A stretch of 49,048 nucleotides of DNA, taken from assembly GCA_017964325.1 (NCBI GenBank), contig JAGCSE010000023.1, positions 1-49,048 on the forward strand, in the 5' to 3' direction. Of this stretch, positions 3,410 to 49,048 are shown piece by piece. A program made the translations under genes and the position numbers. Numbering within the stretch: the stretch's first letter is position 1; every line of letters begins with the position of its first letter. The stretch is from Victivallales bacterium. GTDB lineage: Bacteria; Verrucomicrobiota; Lentisphaeria; Oligosphaerales; Oligosphaeraceae. A model generated the notes under the pieces. That model saw only the letters and a list, made by a program, of their open reading frames with translations, was not told where the DNA came from and ran no database searches.

Positions 3410-3441
3410 GTTTGCTCCTCTTTCAATAGAGTAAAACAGCA

Positions 3442-3490: not shown

Positions 3491-3517
3491 CGGAGGTTCT
3501 TTTGAGGCTACTTGAAG

Positions 3518-3680
3518 GGTTACTTGTGAAGGTGTGGTTAACACCAACGGCTTATTCCTGTCACGAATAAGAGGTGGTTTTATAGGACTCTTTCCAGTTA
3601 CATGTCGGTTACACCACGGTTACATGTCGGTTACATATTAACACTGTGATAATAAGTAAGTTACATGGTTCTTTGTCGGT
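3518..3680. repeat. Direct duplication, copy 1 (partner 4080-4242)
   Basis: About 163 bases repeated almost identically 562 bases downstream. Both copies contain a 21-base palindrome (CTTATTC/GAATAAG arms; 3551-3571 here, 4113-4133 in the partner) and then GGTTACA-type repeats. A related 38-base spacer motif containing GATAATACGTAAGTTACATG recurs near 3640, 3710, 4205 and 4275. I see no gene in 3410-4378. Confidence 0.85.
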
Positions 3681-3745
3681 TACACCTCAGTTACACTACG
3701 GTTACACACTAAGACTATGATAATACGTAAGTTACATGATTATTT

Positions 3746-3844
3746 GGCGGTTACACCACGGTTACACGGCGGTTACACCACGGTTACACGGCGGTTACAC
3801 CACGGTTACACGGCGGTTACACCACGGTTACACGGCGGTTATAC
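3746..3844. repeat. 11-bp tandem array, first block
   Basis: Nine consecutive 11-base units alternating GGCGGTTACAC and CACGGTTACAC, all in one orientation. The period is about one helical turn. There are no spacers, so it is not a CRISPR array. All plus-strand open frames crossing it are repeat artefacts. A second block of the same unit lies at 4308-4384. Confidence 0.9.
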
Positions 3845-4079
3845 CACTTCTCTTCGAAAGCTTCCTTTCTTACAAATCACATAATCCTTTCTTACACTTC
3901 ATGTTATTATATATAAACAACTTAAAGTCATTTTCAAGTTTTTTCTTGCTTTTTCTTATCTTATATCCTTTTACATTGAATACAAGTTATTTATGGATGT
4001 TTTCAAGCTCCTTTTCTTTCTTACATCCTTTCTTACAATTCAATCTTTTACACAGCAAGTACTTACGGGTTACTTGAGG

Positions 4080-4242
4080 GGTTACTTGTGAAGGTGTGGT
4101 TAACACCAACGGCTTATTCCTGTCACGAATAAGAGGTGGTTTTTTGGGACTCTTTCCAGTTACATTGCGGTTACACCACGGTTACATGGCGGTTACATAC
4201 TAAGACTATGATAATACGTAAGTTACATGATTATTTGGCGGT
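4080..4242. repeat. Direct duplication, copy 2
   Basis: Near-identical partner of 3518-3680, with the same 21-base palindrome at 4113-4133 and the same run of GGTTACA motifs. The duplication indicates recombination or slippage in this intergenic region of the R-M locus. Confidence 0.85.
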
Positions 4243-4307
4243 TACACCACGGTTACATGGAAGTTACACACTAAGACTATGATAATACGTAAGTTACATG
4301 AGTATTT

Positions 4308-4384
4308 GGTGGTTACACCACGGTTACATGGCGGTTACACCACGGTTACATGGCGGTTACACCACGGTTACATGGCGGTCATGT
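4308..4384. repeat. 11-bp tandem array, second block, touching the AlbA_2 gene end
   Basis: Seven 11-base units (GGCGGTTACAC/CACGGTTACAT). The last unit runs over the stop codon (4379-4381) of the upstream AlbA_2-type gene, so the array begins exactly at the 3' end of that coding sequence and may have been seeded from it. Confidence 0.9.
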
Positions 4385-6112
4385 ATTCTGACATTTCCTT
4401 TTGCATGATGGATTATTTTTTTTGCATTCCTCCTGTCCTTTTTGCGTTAAACGCCATCCCAAAACTGTTCTATCATACCAAATCAATTTCTTTCGTCTGG
4501 CAAGAATAACAGACAGTAAATTATGAACTTTTTCATTCTTTTCCTTTTGTGACAACCTAGCAGATAAATGTTTCCCCAACAAAGAAATAATATCTGCGCG
4601 TCTAGCTTTTTTGTTCAGGCAGATAAACTCAAGAATCTTCTGCGTATAAAAAGCATCGTCAAAGCCTTTATTGCTTAAGTATTCAGGTATTGTCTCTGTT
4701 TGCGTTGCGATAGCCGCAGAGGGGAATACGCGAGGATACCTGCCTTCAATCAATTTCCTGCTCCGCAAGCCATCAGCCTCCTCCTTGGTGATGGGTTTTC
4801 TTTTTTGAAGCTTATCGAGCAGAATAATGTCGTTCAGATGCAAATCCGGCTGTCTCATTAGCAGATGGGTATAACGTTCGTCCAGAATTTTCCCGTATAA
4901 AGTCGCCATGACCATATTTTCTTCTATTTGGTATTCTGGCAAGGGCATAAAACGATTCTTCTGTTTCAAGAACATTCTTCGGATTCCAGAACCAATGGTG
5001 TCAATCATTTTCAATTCAGCCATTGCTTCGGTCAGCAGTTTGTTGGGATAGAAACGTGGTCGTTTATTGTCAAATAAGACATTTTCAATCGTTCCAGGAA
5101 GAAAATTACCTGCATTTGCGAAGACCACTCTGTCGGGACATTCCGAAACTGTGATAGAACTATTCAGAGAGTAATTTTGGTGAGCGATGCAATTATGAAG
5201 TGCCTCACGAAATACCCATTCATCATATTGGTTGATTTCAATAGGAAACAAGGTACCAGATGGAATGGTACGCAAGGTAAGATTGCGAATTTTAGCATAA
5301 ACTTTATCGACTGCCAGCAGAAATGGAGGACCAAAATGCTTGTAGTCAATATTGTTTTCTTCAGAATCCAATAGATTCCAAGTGATTTTGGCCACAGCCT
5401 CATGAAGAAAATGCGTCGATTCCGGTTTTCCAAGCAAAATGATGGCGGTACGGGTAATTTTTCCGTCAATAGCCAATTTGGCCTTGTTCAGGAATGTCAT
5501 ATCGTCCCATTCGGCAATTTCTGGAAAAAAAGCATCATCCTTGTGCTTATCGGAATATCGTTCTCTAGCTACCTTGACAGCTTCGTCATCCAAATCCTTA
5601 CGGGACGCCTCCAACAAGATTTCCGCCGACCAGTCTTTTCCAACGGTGCGATATATCTGCGCCGCCATTTCAGGAAGTTTTGACAATGGTTGCAATGATT
5701 CGCCAACACGTCCGTATGCCTTGCCATTAAAAGCGATAGGTTGTCGATAGGCTGCTTCTAGCTCTAGTACTACAACATTACAATTATTAATAATGCATTT
5801 GTAGAATTCCATGGATAATTCAGGACTGATTTGCGTATGCAACCATAAGCGAAGACTCTGATTACCGACTTTTGCTGTGTCTGGATCAAAATGAGTTCCA
5901 ACTATTCGATGCGTGGCGTCTTCAATACCCCAAATCAGATAACCATTAGGCTGATGTGCGGCACAGGCACAATTGGCAAGTGCTGATGCATACTTGCCAA
6001 TGCGCTCTGGATCGTCATTCCCATGTTTGAATTCAAACCATGTCTGCTCCGTAGGATAATCCAGCAGTTCCCTAACCAAAACCTCAAGCTCATGATTGGT
6101 ATATTTGCTCAT
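4379..6112 (-). CDS. AlbA_2/Schlafen-type ATP-binding protein (RecG-like family)
   Basis: 577 residues. The N-terminal AlbA_2 (Schlafen-like) domain shows TWFEFKHGNDDPERIGKYASALANCA, given here as the region around residues 22-47. In the middle FREALHNCIAHQNY and the VFANAGNFLPGT segment match the GHKL-type ATP-binding half usual in putative DNA-binding proteins annotated RecG-like. The C-terminus is a winged-helix-like tail. Such proteins occur often in R-M and other defence loci; their activity is mostly undefined. ATG at 6112 is preferred over the GTG at 6121 because AGGGAG, overlapping the mod stop codon, is 8 bases upstream. It lies 12 bases downstream of mod in the same operon. The gene is AT-rich relative to the metabolic genes of the window. 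Confidence 0.85.
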   Translation of the reverse strand: MSKYTNHELEVLVRELLDYPTEQTWFEFKHGNDDPERIGKYASALANCACAAHQPNGYLIWGIEDATHRIVGTHFDPDTAKVGNQSLRLWLHTQISPELSMEFYKCIINNCNVVVLELEAAYRQPIAFNGKAYGRVGESLQPLSKLPEMAAQIYRTVGKDWSAEILLEASRKDLDDEAVKVARERYSDKHKDDAFFPEIAEWDDMTFLNKAKLAIDGKITRTAIILLGKPESTHFLHEAVAKITWNLLDSEENNIDYKHFGPPFLLAVDKVYAKIRNLTLRTIPSGTLFPIEINQYDEWVFREALHNCIAHQNYSLNSSITVSECPDRVVFANAGNFLPGTIENVLFDNKRPRFYPNKLLTEAMAELKMIDTIGSGIRRMFLKQKNRFMPLPEYQIEENMVMATLYGKILDERYTHLLMRQPDLHLNDIILLDKLQKRKPITKEEADGLRSRKLIEGRYPRVFPSAAIATQTETIPEYLSNKGFDDAFYTQKILEFICLNKKARRADIISLLGKHLSARLSQKEKNEKVHNLLSVILARRKKLIWYDRTVLGWRLTQKGQEECKKNNPSCKRKCQNT

Positions 6113-24000: not shown

Positions 24001-27000
24001 ATGCAGCCATTAATCTCCCTATTCCTATCTCAGTCCTACCAAGACACTTGGGATGATTACAAGCGTTCTTTGAGCAATCCGAATTTCGTCTGCTGGGACT
24101 ACGTCGTGCTGACGGCCTCCAACGAACGCCAGGCCGCCGCTTTCCAAGCCCAGCTTGATGAACGGCAGGCCGCTGGATTCCTCCCCTCCCGAACGAAATT
24201 CGCCGTCATTCCCGACCGCGACGGCACACGCATTGGCAGCGGCGGCGCCACTCTCGGGGTCCTTCGTCACATCGCCGAAAAGACTGGAAACGACGATTTC
24301 TCAAACCTCCGCATTATGGTCATCCACAGCGGCGGCGATAGCAAGCGCGTCCCCCAGTATTCCGCCCTTGGAAAGCTCTTTTCGCCTGTCCCGCACGAAC
24401 TTCCAAATGGCCGCATTTCGACGTTGTTTGACGAATTCATGATCGTCATGTCCTCCGTCCCCTCCAGAATCCGCGAAGGCATGCTCCTCCTTTCAGGCGA
24501 CGTCCTTCTCCTTTTCAATCCGTTGCAGATTGATTTCTCCGGTAACGGAGCCGCCGCCATCTCCTTTAAGGAAAATGTCGCCACTGGCAAAAACCACGGC
24601 GTCTTCCTAAAAGGCGCCGACGGCTATGTCGCACGTTTCCTACACAAGCAAAGCGAGGAGACACTCCGTTCTTTAGGTGCCGTCAATTCAAGAAATTGCG
24701 TCGATATCGACACAGGCGCCGTTCTCTTCTCTTCGCCCATGCTCAAGTCACTTTACAGTCTCGTCTCGACGGATGGCAAACTGGACAATGTCAAATACGA
24801 CCGTTTCGTCAACGGCAAAGTCCGCCTTTCCCTCTACGGCGATTTCCTCTATCCGCTGGCCGTTGATTCCACGCTGGAAGCATTTCAGCGCGAGGCACCT
24901 GAAGGCGATTTCTGTCCTGAACTCACCGCCGCCCGCGAAGCCGTCTGGGCTGTCCTCCATCCATATCGTCTGAAGCTTTTGCAGCTTGCCCCCGCCAAAT
25001 TCATCCATTTCGGCACGACGCGTGAAATTCTTGACTTGATGTGCCGCGGCATCGACGACTACCGCGGCCTCGGCTGGTGCCATCAGGTCGCCAGTTCCAT
25101 CTCAGGCTCCACCGCTGGCTATGACAGCATCCTCTCGGACAAGGCGGAAATCGGCACAGGTTGCTACTTGGAAGTGAGTTACGTCCATCATGGAGCCAAA
25201 ATCGGAAACAACGTCGTCCTGTCGTTCATCGATATCCATGACGAAACGATTCCAGACAATATCGTCCTCCACGGCCTGAAGCAGCGCAACGGTCGTTTCG
25301 TCGCCAGAATTTTCGGCGTCATGGACAATCCAAAATCCGCATTGGACGCCAGTTGCACATTCCTCGGCTCGACATTGCAGGATTTCATGACGCAAAACCA
25401 CATCTCCGTCACCGAGCTTTGGCAGGATAATAACTCTCAAACTCTCTGGAATGCAGCACTTTATCCAGAATGTGACACCATCCGAGAAGCCATCGCCGCA
25501 GCCCTCAACCTCTATGCAATGGCCCATGGTTCAGGCAATGCCGAAATCTGGCGGAACGCTTCTAGAAAGTCTTTGTGTTCAGGCTTTAACGATGCAGACC
25601 CACAGGCCATCATTGCATGGACGCGCCGCATGGCTGAACTCGTCCGCATGGACGGCATCGCCAAAACCATCCGCGCCAAACGCCCCGCCCGCGAAATCAA
25701 AGGCATCTTGAACGCCGACGAACTCACGCCAATCCAGACGGCATGGCTTGAAAAGCATCTTCAAACCGCCGATTTCAGCGATGCCATGCGCCTCCATTAC
25801 TATGTCGGAACTGCTCTCGACGGCGTCGCAGGCGACCGCCAAACAGCCGAATGTTTCCGTACCATCCAGAAATTCATCCTACACAGTACGTTAGACAATC
25901 TTCATTATAACGAGACTTGCCACATCGTCAAAGATAAACACGTCGTCCAGCTCCCGCTCCGCGTCAACTGGGGGGGCGGCTGGAGCGATACGCCACCATA
26001 CTGCAATGAAAACGGCGGCACCGTCCTCAACGCCGCCATTCTGCTCAACGGACAGCGCCCCGTCGAAGTCCGACTAGAACGCATCGCCGAACCAAAAATC
26101 GTCTTCGACAGCCGAGATATGGATGTCCACGGAGAGTTCGACACACTCGCCCCACTCCAATTGACTGGCGACCCCTACGACCCGTTCGCCCTCCAAAAAG
26201 CCGCGCTGCTGGCCTGCGGCGTACTCCCGAAGAACGGTGGCGACTTGCCATCCATCCTGAAACGGCTCGGCGGCGGCTTCATCATGCACTCTGAAGTCAC
26301 GGGCGTGCCGAAAGGCAGCGGCCTCGGTACAAGCTCCATCCTCTCCGCCGCCTGCGTCAAGGCAGTCTTCGATTTCATGGGCATCCCGTATTCGGAAGAC
26401 GACCTCTATTCTCATGTTCTTTGCATGGAACAGATTATGTCAACAGGCGGCGGCTGGCAGGACCAAGTCGGAGGCGTAACGGAAGGAATCAAATACATCA
26501 CATCACTGCCTGGACTTGAACAGCAAATCCAAGTCCAGCATATCATCCTTCCACAAGCCACGAAAGATGAACTGGATCAACGCTTTGCGCTCATCTACAC
26601 AGGGCAGCGGCGACTGGCCAGAAACCTCCTGCGGGATGTTGTCGGACGATATGTCGGCAACGAGCCCGATTCGCTTTACGCGCTCAACGAAATCCAACGC
26701 GTCGCCGCCCTCATGCGTTTCGAACTGGAACGCGGTCGCATCAACGAGTTTGCAAAGCTGCTCAATTTCCATTGGGAACTTTCGCAGAAAGTCGATGCAG
26801 GCAGCACGAACACGCTCATCGACCAGATTTTCGCCTCCATTGAGGAGTTCATCGACGGCCGCATGATCTGCGGCGCAGGCGGCGGCGGCTTCCTGCAAGT
26901 CATCCTCAAGAAAGGCATAGCCCGCCAGCAAGTCCACAACAAGCTCAAAGCTGTTTTCGAAGACAACGAAATCGACGTTTGGGATTGCCATCTCGTTTTT

Positions 27001-27003
27001 TAA
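24001..27003 (+). CDS. fkp: Bifunctional fucokinase / L-fucose-1-phosphate guanylyltransferase
   Basis: 1000 residues, close to Bacteroides Fkp. The N-terminal half is the guanylyltransferase, with RIGSGGATLGVL and SGGDSKRVPQYS near residues 78-120. A left-handed beta-helix-like segment follows. The C-terminal GHMP kinase begins near residue 645 with LRVNWGGGWSDTPPY, then PKGSGLGTSSIL and CGAGGGGFLQVI. It makes GDP-L-fucose from L-fucose, ATP and GTP for fucosylation of surface glycans. No strong Shine-Dalgarno before the ATG. Together with fucU it forms a fucose salvage module. Confidence 0.95.
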   Translation: MQPLISLFLSQSYQDTWDDYKRSLSNPNFVCWDYVVLTASNERQAAAFQAQLDERQAAGFLPSRTKFAVIPDRDGTRIGSGGATLGVLRHIAEKTGNDDFSNLRIMVIHSGGDSKRVPQYSALGKLFSPVPHELPNGRISTLFDEFMIVMSSVPSRIREGMLLLSGDVLLLFNPLQIDFSGNGAAAISFKENVATGKNHGVFLKGADGYVARFLHKQSEETLRSLGAVNSRNCVDIDTGAVLFSSPMLKSLYSLVSTDGKLDNVKYDRFVNGKVRLSLYGDFLYPLAVDSTLEAFQREAPEGDFCPELTAAREAVWAVLHPYRLKLLQLAPAKFIHFGTTREILDLMCRGIDDYRGLGWCHQVASSISGSTAGYDSILSDKAEIGTGCYLEVSYVHHGAKIGNNVVLSFIDIHDETIPDNIVLHGLKQRNGRFVARIFGVMDNPKSALDASCTFLGSTLQDFMTQNHISVTELWQDNNSQTLWNAALYPECDTIREAIAAALNLYAMAHGSGNAEIWRNASRKSLCSGFNDADPQAIIAWTRRMAELVRMDGIAKTIRAKRPAREIKGILNADELTPIQTAWLEKHLQTADFSDAMRLHYYVGTALDGVAGDRQTAECFRTIQKFILHSTLDNLHYNETCHIVKDKHVVQLPLRVNWGGGWSDTPPYCNENGGTVLNAAILLNGQRPVEVRLERIAEPKIVFDSRDMDVHGEFDTLAPLQLTGDPYDPFALQKAALLACGVLPKNGGDLPSILKRLGGGFIMHSEVTGVPKGSGLGTSSILSAACVKAVFDFMGIPYSEDDLYSHVLCMEQIMSTGGGWQDQVGGVTEGIKYITSLPGLEQQIQVQHIILPQATKDELDQRFALIYTGQRRLARNLLRDVVGRYVGNEPDSLYALNEIQRVAALMRFELERGRINEFAKLLNFHWELSQKVDAGSTNTLIDQIFASIEEFIDGRMICGAGGGGFLQVILKKGIARQQVHNKLKAVFEDNEIDVWDCHLVF

Positions 27004-34534: not shown

Positions 34535-35671
34535 ATGGTCAAGGAAAACACCGCTCTCATCGACATGCACAACCGAATCTCCGCTACCCAGTTGGAGAAA
34601 ATCCTTCGAATGCAGCTCAAAACGCTGGCGGAACATCCCGAACTGGCCCATGTGCTCCCCCCCTTGATGGTCTGGGGCGCACCCGGGCTCGGCAAATCAT
34701 CCATCATCAAAAGCATTGCGGAGGAAATGGGCATCCAGTTCATCGACGTCCGCCTCGCCCAGCGCGAGCCCGTCGATGTCCGCGGGCTTCCCGTACCCGA
34801 CCGCGAAAACAAGAAAGTCGATTGGATGGTCTCCGGCGAATGGCCGCGCGAAGGACGCGGCATCCTGCTCTTCGACGAACTCACGGCGGCGGACCGCTCC
34901 CTGCAGGTGGCGGCATACGAACTCATCCTCGACCGCCGTCTCGGCGATCTCTATAAAGTCCCCGACGGCTGGTACATCTGCGCGGCTGGCAACCGCGTGG
35001 AGGATGCGGCTGTCTCCACCACCATGTCCTCCGCACTCGCCAACCGCTTCATGCACGTGGAGCTTGGCGAGGACGTGGAGTCCTGGGCGCACTGGGCGAC
35101 CCTGCACAACATCCACCCGTCCGTCATAGGCTTCCTGCGCTTCCGTCCCGAGTGTCTTTTCCGTCAGAGCGACGAGAACCTCGAACGCGGCTGGCCGACG
35201 CCCCGTGCCTGGGAGCGTGTCAGCATCATGATGGGGATCGTCCCTGAAGACGATGAAGAGCTGCTGCGCAAGCTCGTGTACGGTCTTGTGGGCAATCGGG
35301 CTGGCATGGAGTTCATCGAGTTCCACAATCTCAATGCTAGCTTTGATGATGTCCGCAGGATGATGCTGGATCCATCCGTTCCCGTCTCCATCCCCCAGAA
35401 AGTAGACCGCAAATACGCAATGTGCGCCGCCATGGCGTACTATGTCTGGCGTGGCAAGGACAAGGCGGAGTCAGATGCGCTTCTTGACGGATTTTTCCGC
35501 ATCAGCAAGAAGCTTACCAGCGACTTCGCCTGCATGGTGATGACCGACACCATGGGCGGTTGCGGACAGCTCGACTCCAAAGAGGCGGCTTCGCGCCTCT
35601 TCTACCATAAGGATTACAAGGAGTGGGCGGAAATACATGGAAAGGCGATGAAGAAGCATCTCTCGTTCTGA
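34535..35671 (+). CDS. MoxR-family AAA+ ATPase
   Basis: 378 residues. Walker A GAPGLGKSS at 48-56 and Walker B GILLFDELTAAD at 109-120, with the arginine-finger region SSALANRFMHVEL. MoxR ATPases act as chaperones that work with a VWA protein, here the next gene, 10 bases downstream. AGAAGGAACC precedes the ATG. No membrane segment. Confidence 0.93.
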   Translation: MVKENTALIDMHNRISATQLEKILRMQLKTLAEHPELAHVLPPLMVWGAPGLGKSSIIKSIAEEMGIQFIDVRLAQREPVDVRGLPVPDRENKKVDWMVSGEWPREGRGILLFDELTAADRSLQVAAYELILDRRLGDLYKVPDGWYICAAGNRVEDAAVSTTMSSALANRFMHVELGEDVESWAHWATLHNIHPSVIGFLRFRPECLFRQSDENLERGWPTPRAWERVSIMMGIVPEDDEELLRKLVYGLVGNRAGMEFIEFHNLNASFDDVRRMMLDPSVPVSIPQKVDRKYAMCAAMAYYVWRGKDKAESDALLDGFFRISKKLTSDFACMVMTDTMGGCGQLDSKEAASRLFYHKDYKEWAEIHGKAMKKHLSF

Positions 35672-35681
35672 AGAGGAAAAC

Positions 35682-36959
35682 ATGAACAAAATAGCAATTA
35701 GAGATACAAACGAAAGCGAGGAAGCTCGCAAGAAAGTCTGTCTTGAGCAGCTTGCCCAGGACCGTCAGCAGCTCCTCCTGCGCTGGCCGTTTGTCGGCGG
35801 CATCATCATGCGCATGGAGCTGATCCCCGTACGTGACGACCGGCTGGATACCACCTGCACGGACGGAGACAACATCTTCGTTGATATCGACTTCTACTCG
35901 AAATTGACAAAGGACGAACGGCTGTTCGTCCTGGCCCATGAAGTCTGGCATAGCATCCTGCTGCATTTCGCCCGTCGCCAGAAACGCGACCGCGAGCTTT
36001 TCAACATCGCAACCGACCTCGAAATCCATTTCACCCTCATGGACGAGAAGATGCATGAACCATTTGTTCTCCCCCACGACCCGAAATGGAGGGGGCTTTC
36101 AGCAGAGGAAATCTACGAGAAACTTCCTGTCTTTCTGAGCAAAGTCGCGCAGGGCAACGGCAAACAAGGCAAGTTTTCCGGCAATGGCAAGAACGGCTTT
36201 GACAAACACATCTACCAGAATGATACGTGTTCTGTACCTGAAACGGCAGCATCAGAAAAAGGGCAGCCAGACAATCCCTTCGTCATCGACAAGGACTACG
36301 AACCTCGTGTCAGCAATGAGTCCATTGAGCGTTCCCGCTCACGGACAATCGCTTCCGCACAGCAGATGGAGCGTACACGGGGCAGGCTCCCTGCGGGAAT
36401 CCAAGCACTTTTAGAGAAACTCCAGAAGCCGTCGCTTCCCTGGCAGGAGATGCTGAAACAGTTCGTGACGACATGTTACGGCGGAAAACGCCGTTGGCTG
36501 CCTCCCGCTCGTCGTCATGTCTGGCAGGATCTCTATCAGCCTAGCATGCGGGATGAAGCACTGAAAGCGGTTGTCGCGATCGATACCAGCGGAAGCACCC
36601 AGGGGGACCTTCCCGTATTCTTTGCCGAGCTTGTCTCGCTGATGAAATCCTTCGGCAAATTCACACTGGATGTCATCCAGTGCGATGCGAAAGTTCAGGA
36701 TGTGGAGCACTATTCGGATGCCAATGTCCCGCCACCCGATAAGAAATGGGAAATCAAGGGATTCGGAGGAACGGACTTTTGTCCAGTATTTGAATACATC
36801 CAGAAGAAGATGAAAGAACAGCCTGATCTCCTCCTGTTCTTTACAGACGGCTGCGGCACCGCCCCCAGACAGCACCCCGCCTATCCTGTGATGTGGGTGC
36901 TGACAAAAGACGGTACCAAACCGACGGATTGGGGACGTGTGGCGTATTTCAATAAGTGA
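35682..36959 (+). CDS. DUF2201-type HExxH + VWA protein
   Basis: 425 residues. The N-terminal metallopeptidase-like domain has HEVWHSILLH (HExxH at 86-90). After a linker the VWA-like domain contains DTSGST (301-306), a MIDAS-like metal site. This fusion is the usual partner of MoxR ATPases; the pair is thought to remodel or insert metals into targets. GAGGAAAAC precedes the ATG. No obvious truncation. Confidence 0.88.
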   Translation: MNKIAIRDTNESEEARKKVCLEQLAQDRQQLLLRWPFVGGIIMRMELIPVRDDRLDTTCTDGDNIFVDIDFYSKLTKDERLFVLAHEVWHSILLHFARRQKRDRELFNIATDLEIHFTLMDEKMHEPFVLPHDPKWRGLSAEEIYEKLPVFLSKVAQGNGKQGKFSGNGKNGFDKHIYQNDTCSVPETAASEKGQPDNPFVIDKDYEPRVSNESIERSRSRTIASAQQMERTRGRLPAGIQALLEKLQKPSLPWQEMLKQFVTTCYGGKRRWLPPARRHVWQDLYQPSMRDEALKAVVAIDTSGSTQGDLPVFFAELVSLMKSFGKFTLDVIQCDAKVQDVEHYSDANVPPPDKKWEIKGFGGTDFCPVFEYIQKKMKEQPDLLLFFTDGCGTAPRQHPAYPVMWVLTKDGTKPTDWGRVAYFNK

Positions 36960-37043
36960 TTCATAATACGGGCTCTTTGAAACATCTGAAGCGGAAATAA
37001 AAACAGGCAAGGCAGTATATCGCCTCGCCCAAACGAGGTGACT

Positions 37044-37961
37044 ATGACCATTGAAACAAAAACTCCCGCCTATTTGGAACATATCCTCTTGAATGCTCTG
37101 TGCAAAGACAGAACGCCTTCGGAAGTGCTCCGGCAATATCTGAAATGCGGATATGACAAATATACCCTGTCGTCACATTTCTATTCGTATGACGTGAGAT
37201 TCAGATTCGCGTCATGTGCGCCGGTGTCTTTGCTTCCCCATCCCTTTGTCACGGCCTGCGTCCATGGGAACATACCCGTTGTGAGATTGTTCTTGCTTCT
37301 CGGGGCAGATCCGAAAAACAGCCTCATGGAAGGCAATCAAAGTCCCCTTGAGGCATTTCAAGGCAATCCTGAAATAACTGCCGTTTTGTCGGATGACACT
37401 CCCATGATGGCGAGGCGTTACCCTAAGGATTTGGCCGTTGTCATGAAAGGGCAGGTTGAGAAAAGCGTCCTGAAAGGTAATTTCGGACAATTGTTCATCT
37501 ATGGAATGCAAGGGCTGAAAGTGACGGATTCCAACATCGTCTTTTCATGGCGATTCAGAAATTCCCCCACGCTTATCCAGGCTTTTGTTTTCCGTATGCT
37601 TATGACACCACGCAGGCGGAAGGCCATTGTCAACAAAATCATAAGGACAAATGGAAGCGATGCCGTCCCCCCTGTGCTTCGGAGGGCCGTGGAAAGCGAT
37701 GGCTCAAAGGGCAGAGAAAAACTGGACAAATTGCTTGCCATGGTTAATTTGCTGCCAGAGGAAACCATGCGTATGATGGCTCATTCCCTCCTGACGGTGG
37801 AGGAAAAGATTTCCTTTGTCGGAGAAATAATGGAAAAGTCCAATGATGCCAGAGAAAGCAGAAACTTATGGTCGCTTATCGAAGAATTGGCCAATGGGAT
37901 TTACAATGCCATGTGGGAAGATTTTTGTAATCACGCATCTCAATATAACGCCATTCCATAA
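37044..37961 (+). CDS. Ankyrin-like protein 1
   Basis: 305 residues. HPFVTACVHGNIPVVRLFLLLGADPKNS is an ankyrin-type helix-turn-helix unit (about 65-92), followed by an unmatched helical region. Start ATG 37044, with GAGG ahead; a GTG at 37038 would add two residues. First of three related genes; the shared order is ankyrin unit, short basic segment, helical C-terminus. Confidence 0.7.
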   Translation: MTIETKTPAYLEHILLNALCKDRTPSEVLRQYLKCGYDKYTLSSHFYSYDVRFRFASCAPVSLLPHPFVTACVHGNIPVVRLFLLLGADPKNSLMEGNQSPLEAFQGNPEITAVLSDDTPMMARRYPKDLAVVMKGQVEKSVLKGNFGQLFIYGMQGLKVTDSNIVFSWRFRNSPTLIQAFVFRMLMTPRRRKAIVNKIIRTNGSDAVPPVLRRAVESDGSKGREKLDKLLAMVNLLPEETMRMMAHSLLTVEEKISFVGEIMEKSNDARESRNLWSLIEELANGIYNAMWEDFCNHASQYNAIP

Positions 37962-37996
37962 AAATTGATTTTTGAGAAAGACAAAGACGATACACA

Positions 37997-38899
37997 ATGA
38001 AAGTAACAAATGACTATTTCTTGGATTACACGAAAACTTTCAGCGGACAGGCAAAGCAGGAACTTGAGATTCTTTGCAACCTCTGTGAAGCGGAAAAGCC
38101 CAAAAAAGTGCTTGCGCAGTTAAGGAAATGCGATATCGACAGCACGGTTCTGAAAAAGAAATTCTTTGTCCGAGAAGCCAGCCCGATCCCATTTCATCCC
38201 ACAAGGCATCCTTTTCAGACAGCTTGCCGAACTAGCAATCTGCCTGTTATTCGATTGTTGCTTGAAATTGGCGCAGATCCCGACGCAGACTGCTGTGCGA
38301 ATTTCAAGCATATGACGCCCCGCCAGGCATATGCCGACAATGGGCTCGTTCAGGAACTGTTCGAAGGTGGAAAATGTTGGTGGAAAGTCGAATATTCCGA
38401 AGCAAAGAAGCAGGAGTTGCAGGGCGAATTGGAACAAAATATACTGGATGGCGAGCCTAGCGAAGCCATCTGGCTCATGACTCACGGAGTGCGGCTGTCT
38501 GCCCCCGATGTCCTGGCAAATGCGATGTTCAGACAACAATCATCGGCATTCAAGGAACTGATCTGCCGCATGGGCATTCCGGTTGATCGTCTGCCGGAGT
38601 TTCATTCCTGGCTGAAGAATAACTGCACAGCCAGAGAAATACAGGACATAATGGACACATTGATTCAGGCAAAAGACGACAATGAAGAGGATGTCGCTGA
38701 AAAATTGCTTCTTTCCGTTGGCCTGATCGGAATGGATAAACTTGATGAACTGGCTGACAGAACATTCTCCCTTCCCGTGCAAATCAGCATGTTGCAGTAT
38801 TTCATCAACAACTACGATGGCAGTGAAAACCAGTCATTCATAGATAAAACCATAGCCTCCTTGTTCAAGGAGATACTCTATCGCTGTATGGAGGTATGA
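37997..38899 (+). CDS. Ankyrin-like protein 2
   Basis: 300 residues. HPFQTACRTSNLPVIRLLLEIGADPDAD near residues 70-97 aligns with the first paralog, and GGKCWWKVEY with the third. The ending is rich in charged helices. Weak ribosome-binding site. Starts 35 bases after the previous gene and ends 3 bases before the next. Confidence 0.7.
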   Translation: MKVTNDYFLDYTKTFSGQAKQELEILCNLCEAEKPKKVLAQLRKCDIDSTVLKKKFFVREASPIPFHPTRHPFQTACRTSNLPVIRLLLEIGADPDADCCANFKHMTPRQAYADNGLVQELFEGGKCWWKVEYSEAKKQELQGELEQNILDGEPSEAIWLMTHGVRLSAPDVLANAMFRQQSSAFKELICRMGIPVDRLPEFHSWLKNNCTAREIQDIMDTLIQAKDDNEEDVAEKLLLSVGLIGMDKLDELADRTFSLPVQISMLQYFINNYDGSENQSFIDKTIASLFKEILYRCMEV

Positions 38900-38902
38900 T
38901 TT

Positions 38903-39922
38903 ATGTTCCAGAAGATATTCACATTCACAATAGGTGCAATTGTCGCCATTCCGGTTCTGCTGTGGTTTGCCATACAGGGAATCTTTACGGGAAGCTGGAA
39001 ACTTATGGCCTTCGTCTGCCAATGTCAATATCGTGAACTGAAGCATTTATGTGAATCTGGAACGGCTGTTGAACTCCAAGCATTCCTGACAACGCATCCA
39101 GGAGCAAAGGAATATATCGTCTATGCAAGGCAAGGAGCAACGACATCCGTCATAACATCGCTGTTCCGTCTTCCTTCGCCTCTGACCGTGGCTTATCAAG
39201 CGAACAACATGGCAGTCATCCCCGTCCTGCTCGCCAACGGGGCATCTCCCGAGATCCGCAGCATCGCTGCTGACCAGTCGCCTGCCGAAGATGCCATCGG
39301 CAATCCTGACAAGATGCGTGCACTCTGCAATGGAAAGACCTGGTGGCTGGAACATACAGCAAGAACAGATTCGCTTGAAGCGAAAATCAAAGAACGGAAT
39401 CATCGTGGTATCATTTGGAATGTCATGCGCGGCGCGCGGTTGACGAATTTCAAAATGGTTACAAAAGTCGGTTTTTTACGCCTGCCAATGGTGATGAAAG
39501 AGTTCCTTTGCCGTTTTGGCATCGATGAAAAACAACGCAAGGAGTTTTATTCTCAATTGAAAACACTTTCTTCAGAAGAACGGAAGCAAATTATAACGTA
39601 TCACTTTAAGTCACCTGTTGGCTATCAAGGTGTGCGGTTGGAGAAAGAGTTTTCTGAAATGCTGCAGGCCATGGAAAAAACTCTGTTGCCCTTGCCCGCT
39701 GTTGATGATGACGCAATGGAGCGTCTGAAATTCTCCGCGGGATTAATGGACAGAAAGATGATGCTGGAATTGCTCAATACCCTGTTCAACATGGACCAGC
39801 AGTTCGCAATGCTGGAACAATGCACCTGTGTTCCTCCATCAACGAACAACTGTGAACTGACAGAAGATGTCGTCGATCTACTGTTATGTTCAATCTTGAA
39901 AAATGCGGGGGATAAAGTGTAA
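38903..39922 (+). CDS. Ankyrin-like protein 3, membrane-anchored
   Basis: 339 residues. A single transmembrane helix at 8-28 (TIGAIVAIPVLLWFAIQGIF) is followed by an ankyrin-like unit (PLTVAYQANNMAVIPVLLANGASPEI) and the same WW-containing stretch as paralog 2. The membrane anchor is unique to this copy, so the complex may reach the inner membrane. ATG follows the previous stop by three bases (GGAGG present). Confidence 0.7.
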   Translation: MFQKIFTFTIGAIVAIPVLLWFAIQGIFTGSWKLMAFVCQCQYRELKHLCESGTAVELQAFLTTHPGAKEYIVYARQGATTSVITSLFRLPSPLTVAYQANNMAVIPVLLANGASPEIRSIAADQSPAEDAIGNPDKMRALCNGKTWWLEHTARTDSLEAKIKERNHRGIIWNVMRGARLTNFKMVTKVGFLRLPMVMKEFLCRFGIDEKQRKEFYSQLKTLSSEERKQIITYHFKSPVGYQGVRLEKEFSEMLQAMEKTLLPLPAVDDDAMERLKFSAGLMDRKMMLELLNTLFNMDQQFAMLEQCTCVPPSTNNCELTEDVVDLLLCSILKNAGDKV

Positions 39923-39985: not shown

Positions 39986-40013
39986 TTGCAAATTTCAAAA
40001 AGTGTGGTATAGT
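39986..40013 (+). promoter_or_regulatory. Predicted promoter of the small RNA
   Basis: TTGCAA at 39986-39991 and TATAGT at 40008-40013 with a 16-base spacer; transcription would begin near 40019. Confidence 0.6.
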
Positions 40014-40018
40014 ATAGA

Positions 40019-40219
40019 TGTTCTTCCAAAAGAAGAACAGCATCATGAGTAATTCAGTCATCTAGATGACTGAATGAAGTCCACCAGAAATGGTGGATGG
40101 CCAACCTAGGACTCGCGATCCCAAGGTGGACGGCCGAAAGGCAGATGTGGCGGCAAGCAAAAACAACTCGCTCCATATTTGGTTTTTCAGCCCCTTGATG
40201 CGAATCAAGGGGCTTTTTT
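40019..40219 (+). ncRNA. Putative structured small RNA sharing the sigma-leader core
   Basis: About 200 nt between a consensus promoter and a strong terminator, with no coding frame. Hairpins follow in order. GTTCTTC/GAAGAAC lies at 40020-40038, a perfect 24-base palindrome at 40052-40075, and TCCACCA-GAAA-TGGTGGA with a GNRA loop at 40080-40097. A stem closed by GGCC/GGCC (40099-40135) contains CCAACC and GGTGG; GCC-GAAA-GGC follows at 40133-40142. The segment 40101-40130 matches the two sigma leaders at 22 of 26 aligned bases, allowing a 3-base insertion. No known RNA family recognised. Confidence 0.65.
40189..40219 (+). terminator. Rho-independent terminator of the small RNA
   Basis: GCCCCTTGAT / ATCAAGGGGC, ten perfect pairs closed by a GCGA tetraloop, then six T. 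Confidence 0.92.
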
Positions 40220-40286
40220 ATTGCCCATGACAATTCTATTTCAACAAGGAGTAAACAGTAGCATAACAAAAAATGCATCCCGAAAA

Positions 40287-40493
40287 GCCTGGCGAATCGC
40301 AGGAGTTAACCAGGCCCAACCGAGTCGTGACCCCACGGTGGTGTCGTTGCCTTAAAATGGCAATGACAAAATGATGCGGCCGGACGTACGCGAAAGCGGC
40401 GGATTCGAGCAAAAAGGTCTAAAGCAGAGGATAAAGTCACTTCCCTGTCTCCTGAAGCGTGCAGAAAACAATTATTCAGGAGAATAGGAAAAG
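40287..40493 (+). promoter_or_regulatory. Conserved structured leader of sigma-like gene 1
   Basis: Aligns base for base over most of its length with 46207-46402. Stems: GCCTGG/CCAGGC (40287-40315); CCAACC/GGTGG around 40316-40341; TCGTTGCC/GGCAATGA (40344-40366); CGC-GAAA-GCG (40389-40398) inside the invariant GACGTACGC(G/A)AAAGCGGCGG. At the 3' end TCTCCTGAA (40448-40456) pairs with TTCAGGAGA (40475-40483), hiding the ribosome-binding site of the next gene. This is the layout of a translational switch. Ligand or binding protein unknown. Confidence 0.7.
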
Positions 40494-41120
40494 ATGAGGA
40501 TTGCCTCTGTCGATTTCGTCCACACAAACTCGGAGATTGTTCGCTTTATCAAAGATTACAGATCGATTATCTACAAAGTATGTGAGAAGGCAGGATTGAG
40601 CAGGTGCGACTGGGAAAATGTTGAGTCCGAAGTGGCTCTCAAGTATGCACATGGACGTATCAACTATGACCCTGCTCGTGGTTGCAAGGACACGACCTAT
40701 GTCTTTGCGATAGCTCTGAATGCTGCGCATGACCTGCTGAGATGTCAGCACCCTGAACGTTTTCAGGAAATGGAAGACAAGGACTGGGACTCTATTGCTG
40801 ACAAGATTGACAAAAACAAGCAGAGGGAGGCAATGGACGATAAAGTTATCGTCATGGAGGCGTTAAGGCGTCTAGTCCAAAAATGTCACGACAAGAAGAA
40901 GATCGAGATCTTGCTCAGGTATGTCGTTGAAAAGACTGACAGAACACAACTTGCAGAAGAGTATGGAGTGACGAGTGATTATATCAGCGGTGTGAAGAAC
41001 CGCTGGTTACCATGCTTGCAGGAACTGGTAAAAGAGGTCCTGAAGGAAGACCAGGAAGGTAACTTGAAGTTCAGCAATGTTGACTTACGCTTTCTTAAAC
41101 CGTATATGAAGAGTTGGTAA
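40494..41120 (+). CDS. Sigma-70-family-like regulator 1
   Basis: 208 residues. HTNSEIVRFIKDYRSIIYKVCEKAG at the N-terminus resembles sigma region 2; LAEEYGVTSDYISGVKNRWLP is a helix-turn-helix like region 4. A paralog lies at 46481. Intermediate between ECF sigma factors and phage-type activators; I infer promoter recognition. Translation is probably controlled by the leader hairpin. A GC-rich intercistronic hairpin (41126-41164) and metK follow. Confidence 0.72.
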   Translation: MRIASVDFVHTNSEIVRFIKDYRSIIYKVCEKAGLSRCDWENVESEVALKYAHGRINYDPARGCKDTTYVFAIALNAAHDLLRCQHPERFQEMEDKDWDSIADKIDKNKQREAMDDKVIVMEALRRLVQKCHDKKKIEILLRYVVEKTDRTQLAEEYGVTSDYISGVKNRWLPCLQELVKEVLKEDQEGNLKFSNVDLRFLKPYMKSW

Positions 41121-41194: not shown

Positions 41195-42211
41195 ATGATC
41201 AAGACATCCGAATATGTAAGCCTCGGCCATCCCGACAAGACCGCCGACTATATTTCCTGCTATCTTCTCGACCGTTTTCTGGAAAAGGATCCCAAGACCC
41301 GTTTTGCAGTAGAGGTGATGCTAAAGGACAATATCGTCACCCTTGGCGGCGAAGTCACCAGCAAGGCAAATTTCTCCGACGAGGAGATCACCCAGTTCGT
41401 CCGCGCCGCAGTAAACGAAATCGGCTATACAAGGGAATACCAGAACAAGTGGGGCAAGGAAAACACCATCTGTGGAGATGATTTGCAAGTCACCGCCTAT
41501 ATCGGCCACCAGAGCGAAGGCATCGGGCAGGGAGTCTCGCGCGATGCCTGGGGAGACCAGGGCATCTTCCATGGAATGGCCGTGAACTGCCCCGATTACG
41601 GCTATATGCCAAAGGATTATTCACTGGCCAAGACACTCGGCCGGCAATTGTACAGGTCCAGCCTCGGCGGCCTCGACATCAAGACTCTCGTCGCGACGGA
41701 CAACGGCCATGTCAGCCATGTAACCGTTGCCGTCCCGATGCTGCCGGACTGCGACAATACCACGGCGATTCTTGATATTGTCAAAAAGACAACAGATTGT
41801 TCAAAGATTATTCTGAACGGGACGGGAAACTATGTAAGCCATTCCAGCATCGCGGACTGCGGCATCACGGGGCGCAAGCTCGCCGTTGATTTCTACGGCG
41901 GCAACTGCCGCATCGGCGGCGGTTCGCCCTGGACAAAGGACGCGACAAAAGCCGATCTCACATTGAACATCCACGCAAGAAAGCTCGCGTTGGACTACAT
42001 GCGGAAGCATAAGCTTGAATGCGTCTATACGTCGCTCTCATGCTCCATCGGCTCCGCGGAAGTCGAAATCTCCTATCAGGATGCCCACGGAAATGAACTC
42101 CATCATGAGAAGGCCATTGTCAAGCCATCTGAGCTTGTCGGTTTGTATGGATTGGATAAGCCAATCTTTACCACACTCTGCCGTGACGGCCTGTTCAGCC
42201 AGGTGAACTGA
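41195..42211 (+). CDS. metK: Divergent S-adenosylmethionine synthetase
   Basis: 338 residues against about 380-400 for housekeeping MetK. Catalytic motifs persist: YVSLGHPDKTADYIS, WGDQGIFHGMAV, GRKLAVDFYGG and WTKDATKADL. The shortening and sequence divergence suggest a second, mobile-element or phage-type copy. It would make SAM from methionine and ATP. ACAAGGAGATAAA precedes the ATG. No SAM riboswitch recognised; it seems to be transcribed with sigma-like gene 1. Confidence 0.85.
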   Translation: MIKTSEYVSLGHPDKTADYISCYLLDRFLEKDPKTRFAVEVMLKDNIVTLGGEVTSKANFSDEEITQFVRAAVNEIGYTREYQNKWGKENTICGDDLQVTAYIGHQSEGIGQGVSRDAWGDQGIFHGMAVNCPDYGYMPKDYSLAKTLGRQLYRSSLGGLDIKTLVATDNGHVSHVTVAVPMLPDCDNTTAILDIVKKTTDCSKIILNGTGNYVSHSSIADCGITGRKLAVDFYGGNCRIGGGSPWTKDATKADLTLNIHARKLALDYMRKHKLECVYTSLSCSIGSAEVEISYQDAHGNELHHEKAIVKPSELVGLYGLDKPIFTTLCRDGLFSQVN

Positions 42212-44065: not shown

Positions 44066-44310
44066 ACTGTGCTGGCCATACTTGATTTGACTAAAGACTG
44101 CATGATCCGGCAAAGGCTGCAGCCGTAAGGCAACGGGTTCCGTCGCGAAGCGACATCGTACGGAGTGCGAAACCATGCTTAACCGCCGGCAAGCGCCCGG
44201 AGTGGCGCTCAGCCTGCGGATGAAACAGTCCCCCTGTCATAGCGCGCGGGGCGCGCCACATGAAACAGTCACGAATACAAAAGCATCAAATGATATATGG
44301 CCAGCACAGT
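44066..44310. mobile_element. Non-coding element A with perfect 15-bp terminal inverted repeats
   Basis: ACTGTGCTGGCCATA at 44066-44080 is exactly complementary to 44296-44310. The inside is GC-rich and hairpin-forming (GTCGC-GAA-GCGAC; AGCGCC/GGCGCT). A similar element in the same orientation lies at 47235-47426. No target duplication identified. MITE or structured RNA gene. Confidence 0.6.
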
Positions 44311-45160: not shown

Positions 45161-46200
45161 TATTGAACTTCTTCAGAAATGAGAACGACATCAAATCCTC
45201 TGGTAGAGAGGCGGCCATATGCCTTGATCTTCACTGGTGACAAGAAGGCAATCCATGATTCCGGTAGTCATCCACATTCTATATCGTTCGTCGTTCAACC
45301 CGGACTTCATCTGTGACGACATGCTGGTCTCAGACCAGCACACAGGCGAAAGCCACACCTTGCAGATCCCATTCACAGTATTAATGTTTTTTGAAAAAAA
45401 TATCACTCAAAAACTTGAAAAATTAAAATTTTGGTGTACAGTAAAGGTGTAACATGAAAGAATTGAAAACAGTATCAAAGTCGAGTCATAATCATTATAA
45501 ACAACGTGGATTAATATTTGTAAAACCAACGGTGGTTGCGATGTAAAAAACGAAAATTATATACTATATTTAAATTTCTAAAGAAGAATATATAAGTTTC
45601 GCTAAAAAATTATCCATGAATGTATTCAACAAGAATTGTATTTTTTCCCTACTTTGTTTAATAATTCAGTATTCCCTAACAGTTTGACAATCAATTCAAA
45701 AACGATCACCAAAGGATAAAAAACAGCTTTGTTTTTTGTTCAATGGACATATTCATATCTGGCAACAAAACCATGATGAAGTGGTTTTGATAAAGTCCTT
45801 TTTGTCTGATCAACATCAATTATACGATGTCATTATCCTACCGTGGGTTACGAAGCTCCAGAGGCGCCTGCTTCATCCACGGCAAAAATCCTTTCGCCGC
45901 TACGCGGCCTGAAATCTATGCATGCACAGACTTTTGAGGGTCCCGTCTTCGGGATGATCCTGACTACTTTCCTGACAATTTTCACATTTTGTTCCTGTCT
46001 CACTCTTCTCATATTTTGACCAGGTATCATCTCGGATATTATACTGGCAATATAAGAAGAAAATCTATCTTTTGCTTAAGCACGGCTTCCTCCTGAAAAA
46101 CAGAATATAACTTAACTGACTGTGTGGATTGTATTTGTAAAATATAGTACCACAAGGAGCGAAAAATAATATGAGATAATCATCATATCAAAATGTATTC
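45161..46200. other. AT-rich stretch without a credible gene
   Basis: Several short open frames exist. One open frame of about 100 codons (45612-45911 +, containing LFNGHIHIWQQNHDEVV) has no start codon; a 30-codon frame follows a weak TTGAAA/TACAGT promoter-like pair near 45410-45442. These look like decayed genes. The minus-strand 45848-46030 frame has no ribosome-binding site. Confidence 0.4.
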
Positions 46201-46206
46201 AGAATA

Positions 46207-46480
46207 GCTTGGTTAAGAACAGGAATTAACCAGGTCCAACCGAGTTGGGCCTCCACGGTGGTGTCGTTGCTACGAAACAGCGACGCATAATACGGTCAGA
46301 CGTACGCAAAAGCGGCGGATTAAGGCAAAAAAGGTCCATAACAGAGGATAATGTCATTTCCTCTGTCTCCTGGACATGTGCGAATACCGGCAATTTAGGA
46401 GAATTGGAAATGATGACGTTGAAATCATTTCCCTTGTCTCCTAAAAATGTGTGAATACCAGCAACTTAGGAGAATTGGAA
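46207..46480 (+). promoter_or_regulatory. Conserved structured leader of sigma-like gene 2, with duplicated SD hairpin
   Basis: Same architecture as 40287-40493. GCTTGG/CCAGGT (46207-46235) keeps pairing through G-U changes; CGTTGC/GCGACG and CGC-AAAA-GCG follow. ACAGAGGA pairs with TCCTCTGT (about 46341-46366). The SD hairpin occurs twice, 71 bases apart: TCTCCT/AGGAGA (46366-46402) and TCTCCTAA/TTAGGAGA (46437-46473). Confidence 0.7.
46410..46454 (+). CDS. Upstream leader ORF, 14 codons
   Basis: MMTLKSFPLSPKNV, starting eight bases after the first AGGAG copy. Its codons cover the 5' arm (46437-46444) of the second SD hairpin, so a ribosome translating it would open that hairpin. Attenuation-like coupling is inferred. 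Confidence 0.5.
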   Translation: MMTLKSFPLSPKNV

Positions 46481-47104
46481 ATGATGAGGAAAGAATCTGG
46501 CGACTTCAAGCACACAAATTCGGAAATCGTTCGTTTTGAAGAAGATTATAAACTGATTATCTTTAGTGCTTGTAAAGCGGCAGGTTTAAGAAGATGCGAT
46601 TGGGAAGGCGTTGTAAACGAAATGCTTGTCAAGTTTTCTCGGGGACGAATCGAATACGACGGCTCCCGAGGAGCGAAGGCGACCAGTTACTACTATAGAA
46701 TCGCAAAGAATGTTGCGTTGGATGAATGCAGAAAGCAACGTTTGGTCGAACTTGATGACAACGAGATGGAACATGTTCTTGATGAACATGAACCTATCGT
46801 TCAGACTGAGATTGAGGATGAACGGCTTATCGTCACAGAAGCGATTCGACGGCTGGTAAAGGAAATGCGTGACAAGACAAAGGTGGAGATTTTGATTCGT
46901 TATGTGCTCAGTAAAGAAAATCGTGAAGATTTGGCAGAGGAATATGGTATTGACAATGATGATGTTTCGTTGGTTAAAACAAGATATCTCCCACGTTTAA
47001 AGCAACTTCTGATAGAAATACTGAGGGAAGACGAAGAGGGGAAGTTCAAAATCGGGAATTTCTCTGAGATACATTTTCTGCAGAAGTATATGAAGAACTG
47101 GTAG
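46481..47104 (+). CDS. Sigma-70-family-like regulator 2
   Basis: 207 residues, paralog of 40494-41120: HTNSEIVRFEEDYKLIIFSACKAAG, RRCDWEGVVNEM, RGRIEYDGSRGAKATSYYY, LAEEYGIDNDDVSLVKTRYLP and the shared ending YMKNW. ATG 46481 has AGGAG eight bases before; the GTG frame from 46451 reads through the leader. Likely DNA-binding regulator of transcription initiation. Confidence 0.72.
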   Translation: MMRKESGDFKHTNSEIVRFEEDYKLIIFSACKAAGLRRCDWEGVVNEMLVKFSRGRIEYDGSRGAKATSYYYRIAKNVALDECRKQRLVELDDNEMEHVLDEHEPIVQTEIEDERLIVTEAIRRLVKEMRDKTKVEILIRYVLSKENREDLAEEYGIDNDDVSLVKTRYLPRLKQLLIEILREDEEGKFKIGNFSEIHFLQKYMKNW

Positions 47105-47234: not shown

Positions 47235-47426
47235 TTACTGTGTTGGCCATAATTATCTTGACAAAAATTCCGCATGGTCGGTCAGAGGCTGTCGTTGTCT
47301 GGAAACAGAATTCCGTCGAGGAACGGCGCGTAACGTGGGGATGAAGACGCCCCTTGACATGGCACGCGGGACGCGCCACTGAAAATGGTCGGCAAGTAAT
47401 CTAATGATTTATGACCTGTACAGTAA
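47235..47426. mobile_element. Non-coding element B, related to element A
   Basis: TTACTGTGTTGGCCATAA and the complement of TTACTGTACAGGTCATAA (14 of 18 identical) bound a region that shares CCATA..TTGAC, GCATGGTC and the CACGCGGGACGCGCCAC segment with element A. No gene in 47105-47535. Confidence 0.55.
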
Positions 47427-48516: not shown

Positions 48517-49048
48517 TCAAAAGCCCTCGAAGCAGGGCTGGTAGGCCGTGCCCAGGCTTCCCCTGATGAGATGGTGGTGCCGTTCACGCGGCGTGTCGCA
48601 GCATTCGATCACGGCAGGCATCTTGAAATAATTCCACAGCACGGCCCGCAGAAGCGTGAACAGCCGGCAGAACTGGTGCCTCCATTTGTTCTGCCAGGCG
48701 ATGAAGCGGAGCAGGAGATATGCCGGCAGCGCCGTCCAGACCTGCCAGCGCACGGCGTTCTCGCTGTTGCCCAGGAAATCGGCCAGCTGCAGCGTCTGCT
48801 TCAGCTCCTTGAAGAACACCTCCACCCCCCAGCGGCACTGGCAGGGCTGGCAGATTGAGAACGCCGACCATTCGAAGTTGTTCGTAATGAAGGACATCTT
48901 CACCATCTTGCCCCTGACCTCGACCATGGCGGCCACCAGACGCAGCTCATTCGGGTAGTTCTCCCGGGTCTTCGGCCCGGACAGCCTTATCCGCTCGTCC
49001 GACAGCACGGCGCATTTTTTCCAGGCGTATTTACGCTTGCGTTTTTTC
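48517..49048 (-). mobile_element. IS4-family transposase, partial (5' end beyond window)
   Basis: The open frame enters from the right edge. CRWGVEVFFKELKQTL is the YREK signature (R-x3-E-x6-K) and GNSENAVRWQVWTALPAYLLL the following helix of IS4-type DDE transposases. Stop near 48517; the IS end is somewhere in 48390-48516 but cannot be fixed without the other terminus. Confidence 0.9.

Follow-up and report, generated by a model that had tools for sequence, protein, structure and literature searches.

SAM-I/IV-like aptamers, arranged in tandem at one gene, precede two sigma-like genes in a Victivallales bacterium

Two sigma-like genes and their leaders

The window analysed here is the whole stretch of 49,048 nucleotides of contig JAGCSE010000023.1 from a Victivallales bacterium. 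It carries two sigma-like genes, gene 1 at 40494-41120 and gene 2 at 46481-47104, the products of which are 50% identical; these genes, the elements preceding them and the gene behind gene 1 are all on the plus strand. Gene 2 matches Sigma70_r2 with 30.5 bits (cut-off 24) and was counted as an ECF sigma factor with regions 2 and 4, whereas gene 1 stays under the Pfam cut-off (Sigma70_r2, 20 bits) and under that of sigma70-ECF (38.9 bits, cut-off 42.9). An AlphaFold model of the gene 2 product (mean pLDDT 75, pTM 0.43) retrieved ECF sigma factors first from the PDB, with TMt values of 0.73-0.77 for the -35-binding domain and whole-chain E-values that were all above 0.001 (286 hits). A protein search yielded 17 homologues. 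Four of them (P0004, P0007, P0009 and P0011) are mosaic, with nearly identical first halves and different second halves or vice versa, which suggests recombination among paralogues. Gene 1 is followed after 74 nt by a paralogue of the S-adenosylmethionine (SAM) synthetase MetK (41195-42211; 145.5 bits to TIGR01034, cut-off 309.4), perhaps co-transcribed with it, in which GHPDK, GDQG, GRK and KDxTK, presumably the catalytic motifs, are kept.

In the original prediction, both genes had been assigned a conserved leader with stems maintained by compensatory changes and a last hairpin covering the ribosome-binding site. These stems were found where they had been placed and fit a common fold. GCCTGG/CCAGGC at 40287-40292/40310-40315 in leader 1 corresponds to GCTTGG/CCAGGT at 46207-46212/46230-46235 in leader 2, and the last stem TCTCCTGAA/TTCAGGAGA at 40448-40456/40475-40483 to TCTCCTAA/TTAGGAGA at 46437-46444/46466-46473. 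The element is real, but it starts about 12 nt earlier than proposed, at about 40272 and 46192, and is closed by a helix, P1, that had been overlooked (40275-40279/40373-40377 in leader 1, 46195-46199/46289-46293 in leader 2). In P1, TGCATC (40274) pairs with GATGCG (40373) in leader 1 and TGTATT with AATACG in leader 2.

The aptamer portion of leader 1, referred to as aptamer 2, extends from 40272 to 40424, that of leader 2 from 46192 to 46341. P2 is in both cases the first of the stems mentioned above; it has 6 bp, closes one loop and lacks an internal loop. In leader 1 it is followed by P3 (CCAACCG 40316-40322 with CGGTGG 40336-40341), P4 (40343-40351/40359-40367), the P5 region (40378-40410) and a linker of A residues (40411-40415), and in leader 2 by P3 (46236-46242/46256-46261) and P4 (46262-46269/46278-46285). 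An inner P3 stem is absent from leader 1. Both folds are more stable than expected from shuffled sequences (leader 1, z -2.89, 0 of 200 shuffles as good; leader 2, z -4.65, 1 of 200). When the leaders are compared with each other, 66 of 66 cells pair and three pairs change on both sides, two of them in P1. Since 65 of 500 shuffles match this result, the two leaders by themselves do not prove covariation.

The window has two copies of a core described as nearly invariant, GACGTACGCRAAAGCGGCGG (40383 and 46299); none of 100 shuffles contains it. According to the pattern count and the leader alignment it corresponds to a hairpin inside the P5 region, CGUACGC-GAAA-GCGGCG (40385-40401). It is thus present in both leaders, but the pattern CGUACGC-RAAA-GCGGCG was seen only in this pair and is not a signature of a family. 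Eleven loci in viral contigs containing the exact core pattern were judged from their flanks to be chance occurrences, and blastn searches with the leaders returned only short runs around the core at these loci.

Relation to SAM-I/IV riboswitches

The leaders share with SAM-I/IV riboswitches (Rfam RF01725, clan CL00012) the order of helices P1 to P5, a P2 without internal loop, a CAACC/GGUG core, an A-rich linker, a pseudoknot of loop 3 and GG after P1. They differ from canonical members by a longer J1/2, a long P5 hairpin, the missing inner P3 stem of leader 1, scores below the Rfam threshold and the sigma-like genes downstream. SAM-I (RF00162) and SAM-IV (RF00634) riboswitches have the same kind of ligand-binding core. 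Compared by description, the leaders are set apart from SAM-I by the lack of a P2 internal loop and of a kink-turn. Passages of PMC2864571 name the missing P2 internal loop as a trait of the SAM-I/SAM-IV variants.

The original prediction recognised no described class in the leaders and held that an Rfam match would remove their novelty. At gathering score, a scan of the window gave no match to the leaders; leader 1 had no match from the SAM clan even up to an E-value of 10, leader 2 being scanned at gathering score only. The gathering score of RF01725, 41.1 bits, is reached by none of the three aptamers of the window, including aptamer 1, a further one upstream of leader 1 (22.2 bits, E 0.46). 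The Rfam model falls short of the leaders, and they are therefore treated as divergent relatives within the superfamily rather than as members of RF01725. Core nucleotides, helix order, the pseudoknot and R2, a covariance model from which the leaders were left out, nevertheless place them among the relatives of SAM-I/IV, contrary to the absence of a known class.

In the class Lentisphaeria, 16 of 197 genomes match RF01725 at E <= 0.05, 11 of them above the cut-off, in a total of 18 places. R2 was derived from 11 of these places, ten above the Rfam cut-off and one, L136, below, and included no sigma leader. Left out were L120 (the aptamer of a sigma leader), the metK loci L121 and L122, and L127, L137, L138 and L140, three of the last four being SAM-I-like by eye. 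The leaders had already been seen when members and structure were picked, so that the choice was not blind. In an unfiltered search of six sources (62,900 bases), the three best places of the window were aptamer 1 (22.8 bits, E 0.0023), the aptamer of leader 2 (16.8 bits, E 0.054) and aptamer 2 (16.4 bits, E 0.063), followed by a place with 9.8 bits. These E-values are rough, as they come from a short calibration; because the leaders were named beforehand, the test is stronger than the values suggest. The likeness of the leader aptamers to bona fide SAM-I/IV members thus exceeds chance.

Over 15 sources, without L101 and L139, R2 gave 18 matches at E <= 0.6, a limit set after the window result to keep the aptamers of genome G018, and every match was at a place where an aptamer was expected. 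Covariation in ten or more members had been suggested as a check. It was not provable from the leader pair, but it exceeds shuffles in the wider alignment of these 18 aptamers: double-sided changes are seen in 20 of 27 pairs, pairing holds in 96.5% of the cells, none of 500 shuffles reaches any of the measures, and pairing collapses if the partners are slid by one to three columns. The alignment leans towards the structure, to which it was fitted, and ten of its 18 rows also built R2. CAACC, GGUG and GG after P1 are invariant in all 18 aptamers, leaders included.

R1, the covariance model from both leaders that had been proposed as a search tool, was too narrow: at E <= 1 it reached three of the 197 genomes, with 17.4-19 bits, and G018 obtained 8.8 bits, less than two false places in the window. 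A further model, R3, had matches in 18 of the 197 genomes when E was limited to 0.3, with the new places L150 to L152. Stricter filters made it overlook the known G018 aptamers, so that this tally is a lower bound, and it does not confirm aptamer 2 of genomes G022 (E 1.8) and G023 (E 0.71), both of which carry extra helices. A descriptor marked just three places in the window, and these were the leader aptamers; from Markov sequence, where it hit 30 places over 4.9 Mb, about 0.6 would be expected. Applied to 818,415 bases of loci, it picked up ten more places, judged unrelated, but neither of the G018 aptamers.

In SAM-I/IV aptamers of the class, loop 3 pairs with a sequence after P5 and the A-rich linker, for example UCGGAUA/UAUCCGG (L126) or UCAGGA/UCCUGA. 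Leader 2 shows the corresponding pseudoknot with 7 bp, UGGGCCU (46246-46252) with AGGUCCA (46332-46338), and 5 of 5000 shuffles were as good. In leader 1 it is weak, with only 4 bp between GACC in loop 3 (40329-40332) and GGUC (40416-40419; 148 of 5000). A first assignment of this GGUC to P5, paired with GGCC and used in R1, was replaced. The pseudoknots of related sigma leaders are spelled in new letters, UUGCUGU/ACAGCAA in G023 (23 of 5000) and CGUGCUG/CAGCACG in G022 (44 of 5000); for CCGUU/AACGG in the second aptamer of G018, 1358 of 5000 shuffles were as good. Altogether 16 aptamers were scored, with segments chosen by eye and L131, L133, L134, L121 and L122 excluded. Fewer than 50 of 5000 shuffles were as good in eight and 86-168 in four, and the remaining four (both G018 aptamers, aptamer 1 of G022, and L129) were no better than chance (745-4921).

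Tandem arrangement and Shine-Dalgarno hairpins

Aptamer 1, also divergent and SAM-I/IV-like, is located at 40035-40176, with P1 at 40040-40044/40144-40148. A promoter-like sequence, TTGCAA-16-TATAGT (39986-40013), precedes it but is weak (two found, 0.9 expected), and an intrinsic terminator, AGCCCCTTGATGCGAATCAAGGGGCT with a T run, follows at 40189-40222 (one found, 0.7 expected). The terminator copies the 3' strand of P1, and the 5' strand of P1 is consequently able to pair with the terminator instead. At gene 1 this antiterminator pairing joins UGAUGC of the terminator to GCAUCA of P1, with 157 of 5000 shuffles as good. The same P1/terminator pairing is AAGCAUCAAG/CUUGAUGCUU in G022 (0 of 5000) and, ahead of metK, AUUCAUCA/UGAUGAAU in G023 (11 of 5000) and UUUCAUCA/UGAUGGAA in G024 (28 of 5000), so that both partners change together in four loci; G018 offers only GUGCGG/UCGCAU. 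Upstream of the aptamer of gene 2, R2 found no match, and this gene is taken to have a single aptamer.

Behind the second aptamer of gene 1, a hairpin at 40448-40483 sequesters the Shine-Dalgarno (SD) sequence AGGAGA (40478-40483). In leader 2 this last hairpin is duplicated in tandem (46354-46487), the copies being 71 nt apart and 87% identical: the first (46366-46402; SD 46397-46402) faces a mini-ORF of 14 codons, MMTLKSFPLSPKNV* (46410-46454), and the second (46437-46473; SD 46468-46473) faces gene 2. RNAfold models bear out that the last hairpin covers the ribosome-binding site, as the SD is mostly paired in both leaders. Its mean probability of being unpaired is 0.08 in leader 1, 0.05 at the gene start of leader 2 and 0.01 in the upstream copy. 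Among ten control ORF starts of the window, eight had a scorable motif and gave 0.12-0.80 on somewhat shorter segments; with the lowest controls at 0.12 and 0.17, some ordinary starts closely approach the leaders.

In leader 2, the ORF that begins behind the first hairpin copy extends across the anti-SD arm of the second copy, which suggests that the mini-ORF couples translation to that of gene 2. By eye, G022 (L111, about 1299-1470) likewise contains a pair of SD-type hairpins separated by a short GTG ORF.

As to a contact between aptamer and SD hairpin, pairing of P1 with the hairpin is unsupported as a switch, since 1273 (leader 1), 277 and 108 (the hairpins of leader 2), 1434 (G023) and 845 (G022) of 3000 shuffles were as good. 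Pairing of the P2 loop, CAGGAG, with the anti-SD sequence CUCCUG is clear in leader 1 only (75 of 5000 shuffles as good) and is regarded as a lead; elsewhere 115 and 1206 (the hairpins of leader 2), 438 (G023) and 940 (G022) of 5000 shuffles were as good.

Relatives in other genomes and the regulatory reading

The family (29 genomes) and the class (197 genomes) of a close relative were searched for relatives of the sigma gene. The class search returned 32 places at E <= 1e-8, and for 30 of them the locus was scanned for CCAACC...GGUGG. Related leaders upstream of sigma-like genes were detected in three more genomes. In G022 (contig C84) a clear sigma relative is preceded by a SAM-I/IV riboswitch above the Rfam cut-off (49.2 bits), a terminator and a second, SD-burying leader. 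In G018 a terminator-like hairpin separates two sub-threshold SAM-I/IV matches of 19.6 and 31.3 bits, and the gene behind them is weakly sigma-like: its E-value of 3.1e-10 does not surpass those of generic ECF sigma factors from other genomes, and its ORF has no Pfam match. G023 harbors a leader resembling the second one of G022, ahead of a sigma gene with an internal deletion. Besides gene 1 of the window, two genomes among the 197 of the class thus show the order aptamer, terminator, aptamer. At gene 1 and in G022 the second aptamer stands at a buried SD, and in G018 the order is the same with an SD less buried (probability unpaired 0.25). The leader is not universal: among six places of the class at E <= 5e-29, two of which are rows of the query alignment, only the G022 locus has one. 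Near the other five, Rfam gave no SAM match at E <= 0.5, and the best R3 match (13 bits, E 0.24) was inside a coding gene of L091. No relative of the sigma family was found by peptide patterns in genome contigs and viral contigs, nor did gene 2 match plasmids (tblastn) or leader 1 phages (blastn). A likeness to cobalamin riboswitches noticed by eye in L085 had no Rfam match at E <= 3.

In two loci, L121 (G023, contig C555) and L122 (G024, contig C49), metK lies directly behind a SAM-I/IV-like aptamer scoring just below the cut-off (39.2 and 39.1 bits) and a terminator. Together with the MetK paralogue behind gene 1, these loci were counted in favour of the preferred reading given below. Judged from sequence, the leaders most likely constitute a strongly diverged relative of a known SAM sensor rather than an unknown class. 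The original view of a conserved, SD-burying leader of translational-riboswitch type before sigma-like genes is retained in this respect, the absence of a known class is not. We estimate at roughly three in four the probability that both leaders are divergent SAM-I/IV switches acting on SD hairpins, in tandem at gene 1, with SAM as the likely ligand and binding turning expression off. If aptamer 1 is unbound, the 5' strand of its P1 would pair with the 5' arm and loop of the terminator, causing antitermination; a bound ligand would hold P1 together and free the terminator, and transcription would stop. RNA escaping termination would contain aptamer 2, which may tune translation via the SD hairpin. 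High SAM would thereby switch off gene 1 together with the downstream MetK paralogue, and at gene 2 the SD hairpin would serve as expression platform of the single aptamer.

Such a two-level arrangement resembles the SAM-II/SAM-V tandem riboswitch, with its first aptamer connected to a terminator and its second on the ribosome-binding site; it differs from it in that both aptamers of gene 1 belong to one superfamily. Passages of PMC9481103 describe the SAM-II/SAM-V tandem, SAM-II combined with SAM-I/IV and 164 double SAM-I riboswitches, and contain no SAM-I/IV pair among the tandems.

The aptamers may be of the same type and aptamer 2 may respond to another ligand, such as SAH, decarboxylated SAM, a polyamine or a further SAM-related compound, the tandem then acting as a two-input gate. 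A precedent is the spermidine riboswitch, a SAM-I variant altered, according to passages of PMC10853860, in both J1/2 and the internal loop of P3. The leaders deviate from canonical members in J1/2; their P3 bulge is canonical, as AA/U and the adjoining C-G pairs are unchanged in 18 of 18 aptamers, and GA in J1/2 is kept in all five second aptamers in the hand register (in the model's own alignment, 17 of 18 rows). As the neighbouring gene also encodes a SAM synthetase, a changed ligand is considered unlikely. It is slightly less likely still that aptamer 2 drifted to another SAM-related ligand and that methylation state, for example SAM versus SAH, is passed on to a transcription programme by a two-input RNA gate.

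Regulatory leaders occur in the sigma mRNAs of rpoH and rpoS, and four of the five second leaders have a buried SD when modelled. A protein-binding or autoregulatory leader or an rpoH-type thermosensor with an aptamer-like fold as mere scaffold would fit these points, but no observation specifically spoke for a thermosensor or a protein-binding leader; such a reading leaves unexplained the conserved SAM core, the pseudoknot and the presence of a SAM-I/IV aptamer above the Rfam cut-off in the G022 tandem, and appears very improbable. Equally improbable are degenerate remnants travelling with a multi-copy sigma gene and leaving the SD hairpin to act alone: low scores, the 4-bp pseudoknot and lost inner P3 stem of leader 1, the mosaic paralogues and the deleted sigma gene of G023 would agree with this, but neutral decay would hardly keep 66 of 66 pair cells while the proteins are only 50% identical.

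SAM riboswitches mostly control methionine and SAM metabolism. If the leaders are SAM switches as preferred here, their placement ahead of sigma-like genes would let the SAM level switch a set of promoters. The site is unusual, and the tandem of gene 1 is a SAM-I/IV pair that seemingly acts at two levels; the superfamily itself is known. A combination of SAM riboswitch and sigma factor in Lentisphaerae or Victivallales was not found in the open-licence PMC literature among the matches listed, and passages of PMC12452182 include no sigma-gene case. In Lentisphaeria the SAM-I/IV superfamily extends below the Rfam threshold, and the leader aptamers with changed J1/2 provide material for testing ligand drift.

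Other SAM-I/IV riboswitches of Lentisphaeria stand ahead of genes for an uncharacterised protein some 150-170 aa long (L126, L128, L130, L134, L139), for which three tested members had no Pfam match and two searched with NCBIfam gave one weak sub-threshold match. Further ones are located ahead of N-formylglutamate amidohydrolase-like genes (L132 by Pfam match; L135, L150 and L151 by eye).

Upstream of the tandem leader (34535-39922), the window contains genes for an apparently MoxR-like AAA ATPase (AAA_3 below cut-off) and a DUF2201 metallopeptidase/VWA protein, as well as a group of three genes resembling each other, of which one weakly matches ankyrin under the cut-off; by eye, such a gene is also present behind the sigma-like gene of G018 (L103, 2727-3497). 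Two MITE-like elements, about 245 and 185 nt long and bounded by the inverted ends ACTGTGYTGGCCATA, are found at 44066-44310 and, by eye, at about 47236-47420, and a transposase-like fragment was noticed by eye on the minus strand at 48517-49008. A fucokinase-type protein (24001-27003) has counterparts of 87-88% identity in L012 and L032, both Victivallales MAGs from water buffalo forestomach, and in L013, a third genome, of an uncultured bacterium. The remaining 68 of 71 loci, with at most 72% identity, belong mostly to Clostridia or their families, which indicates that this gene moves between phyla.
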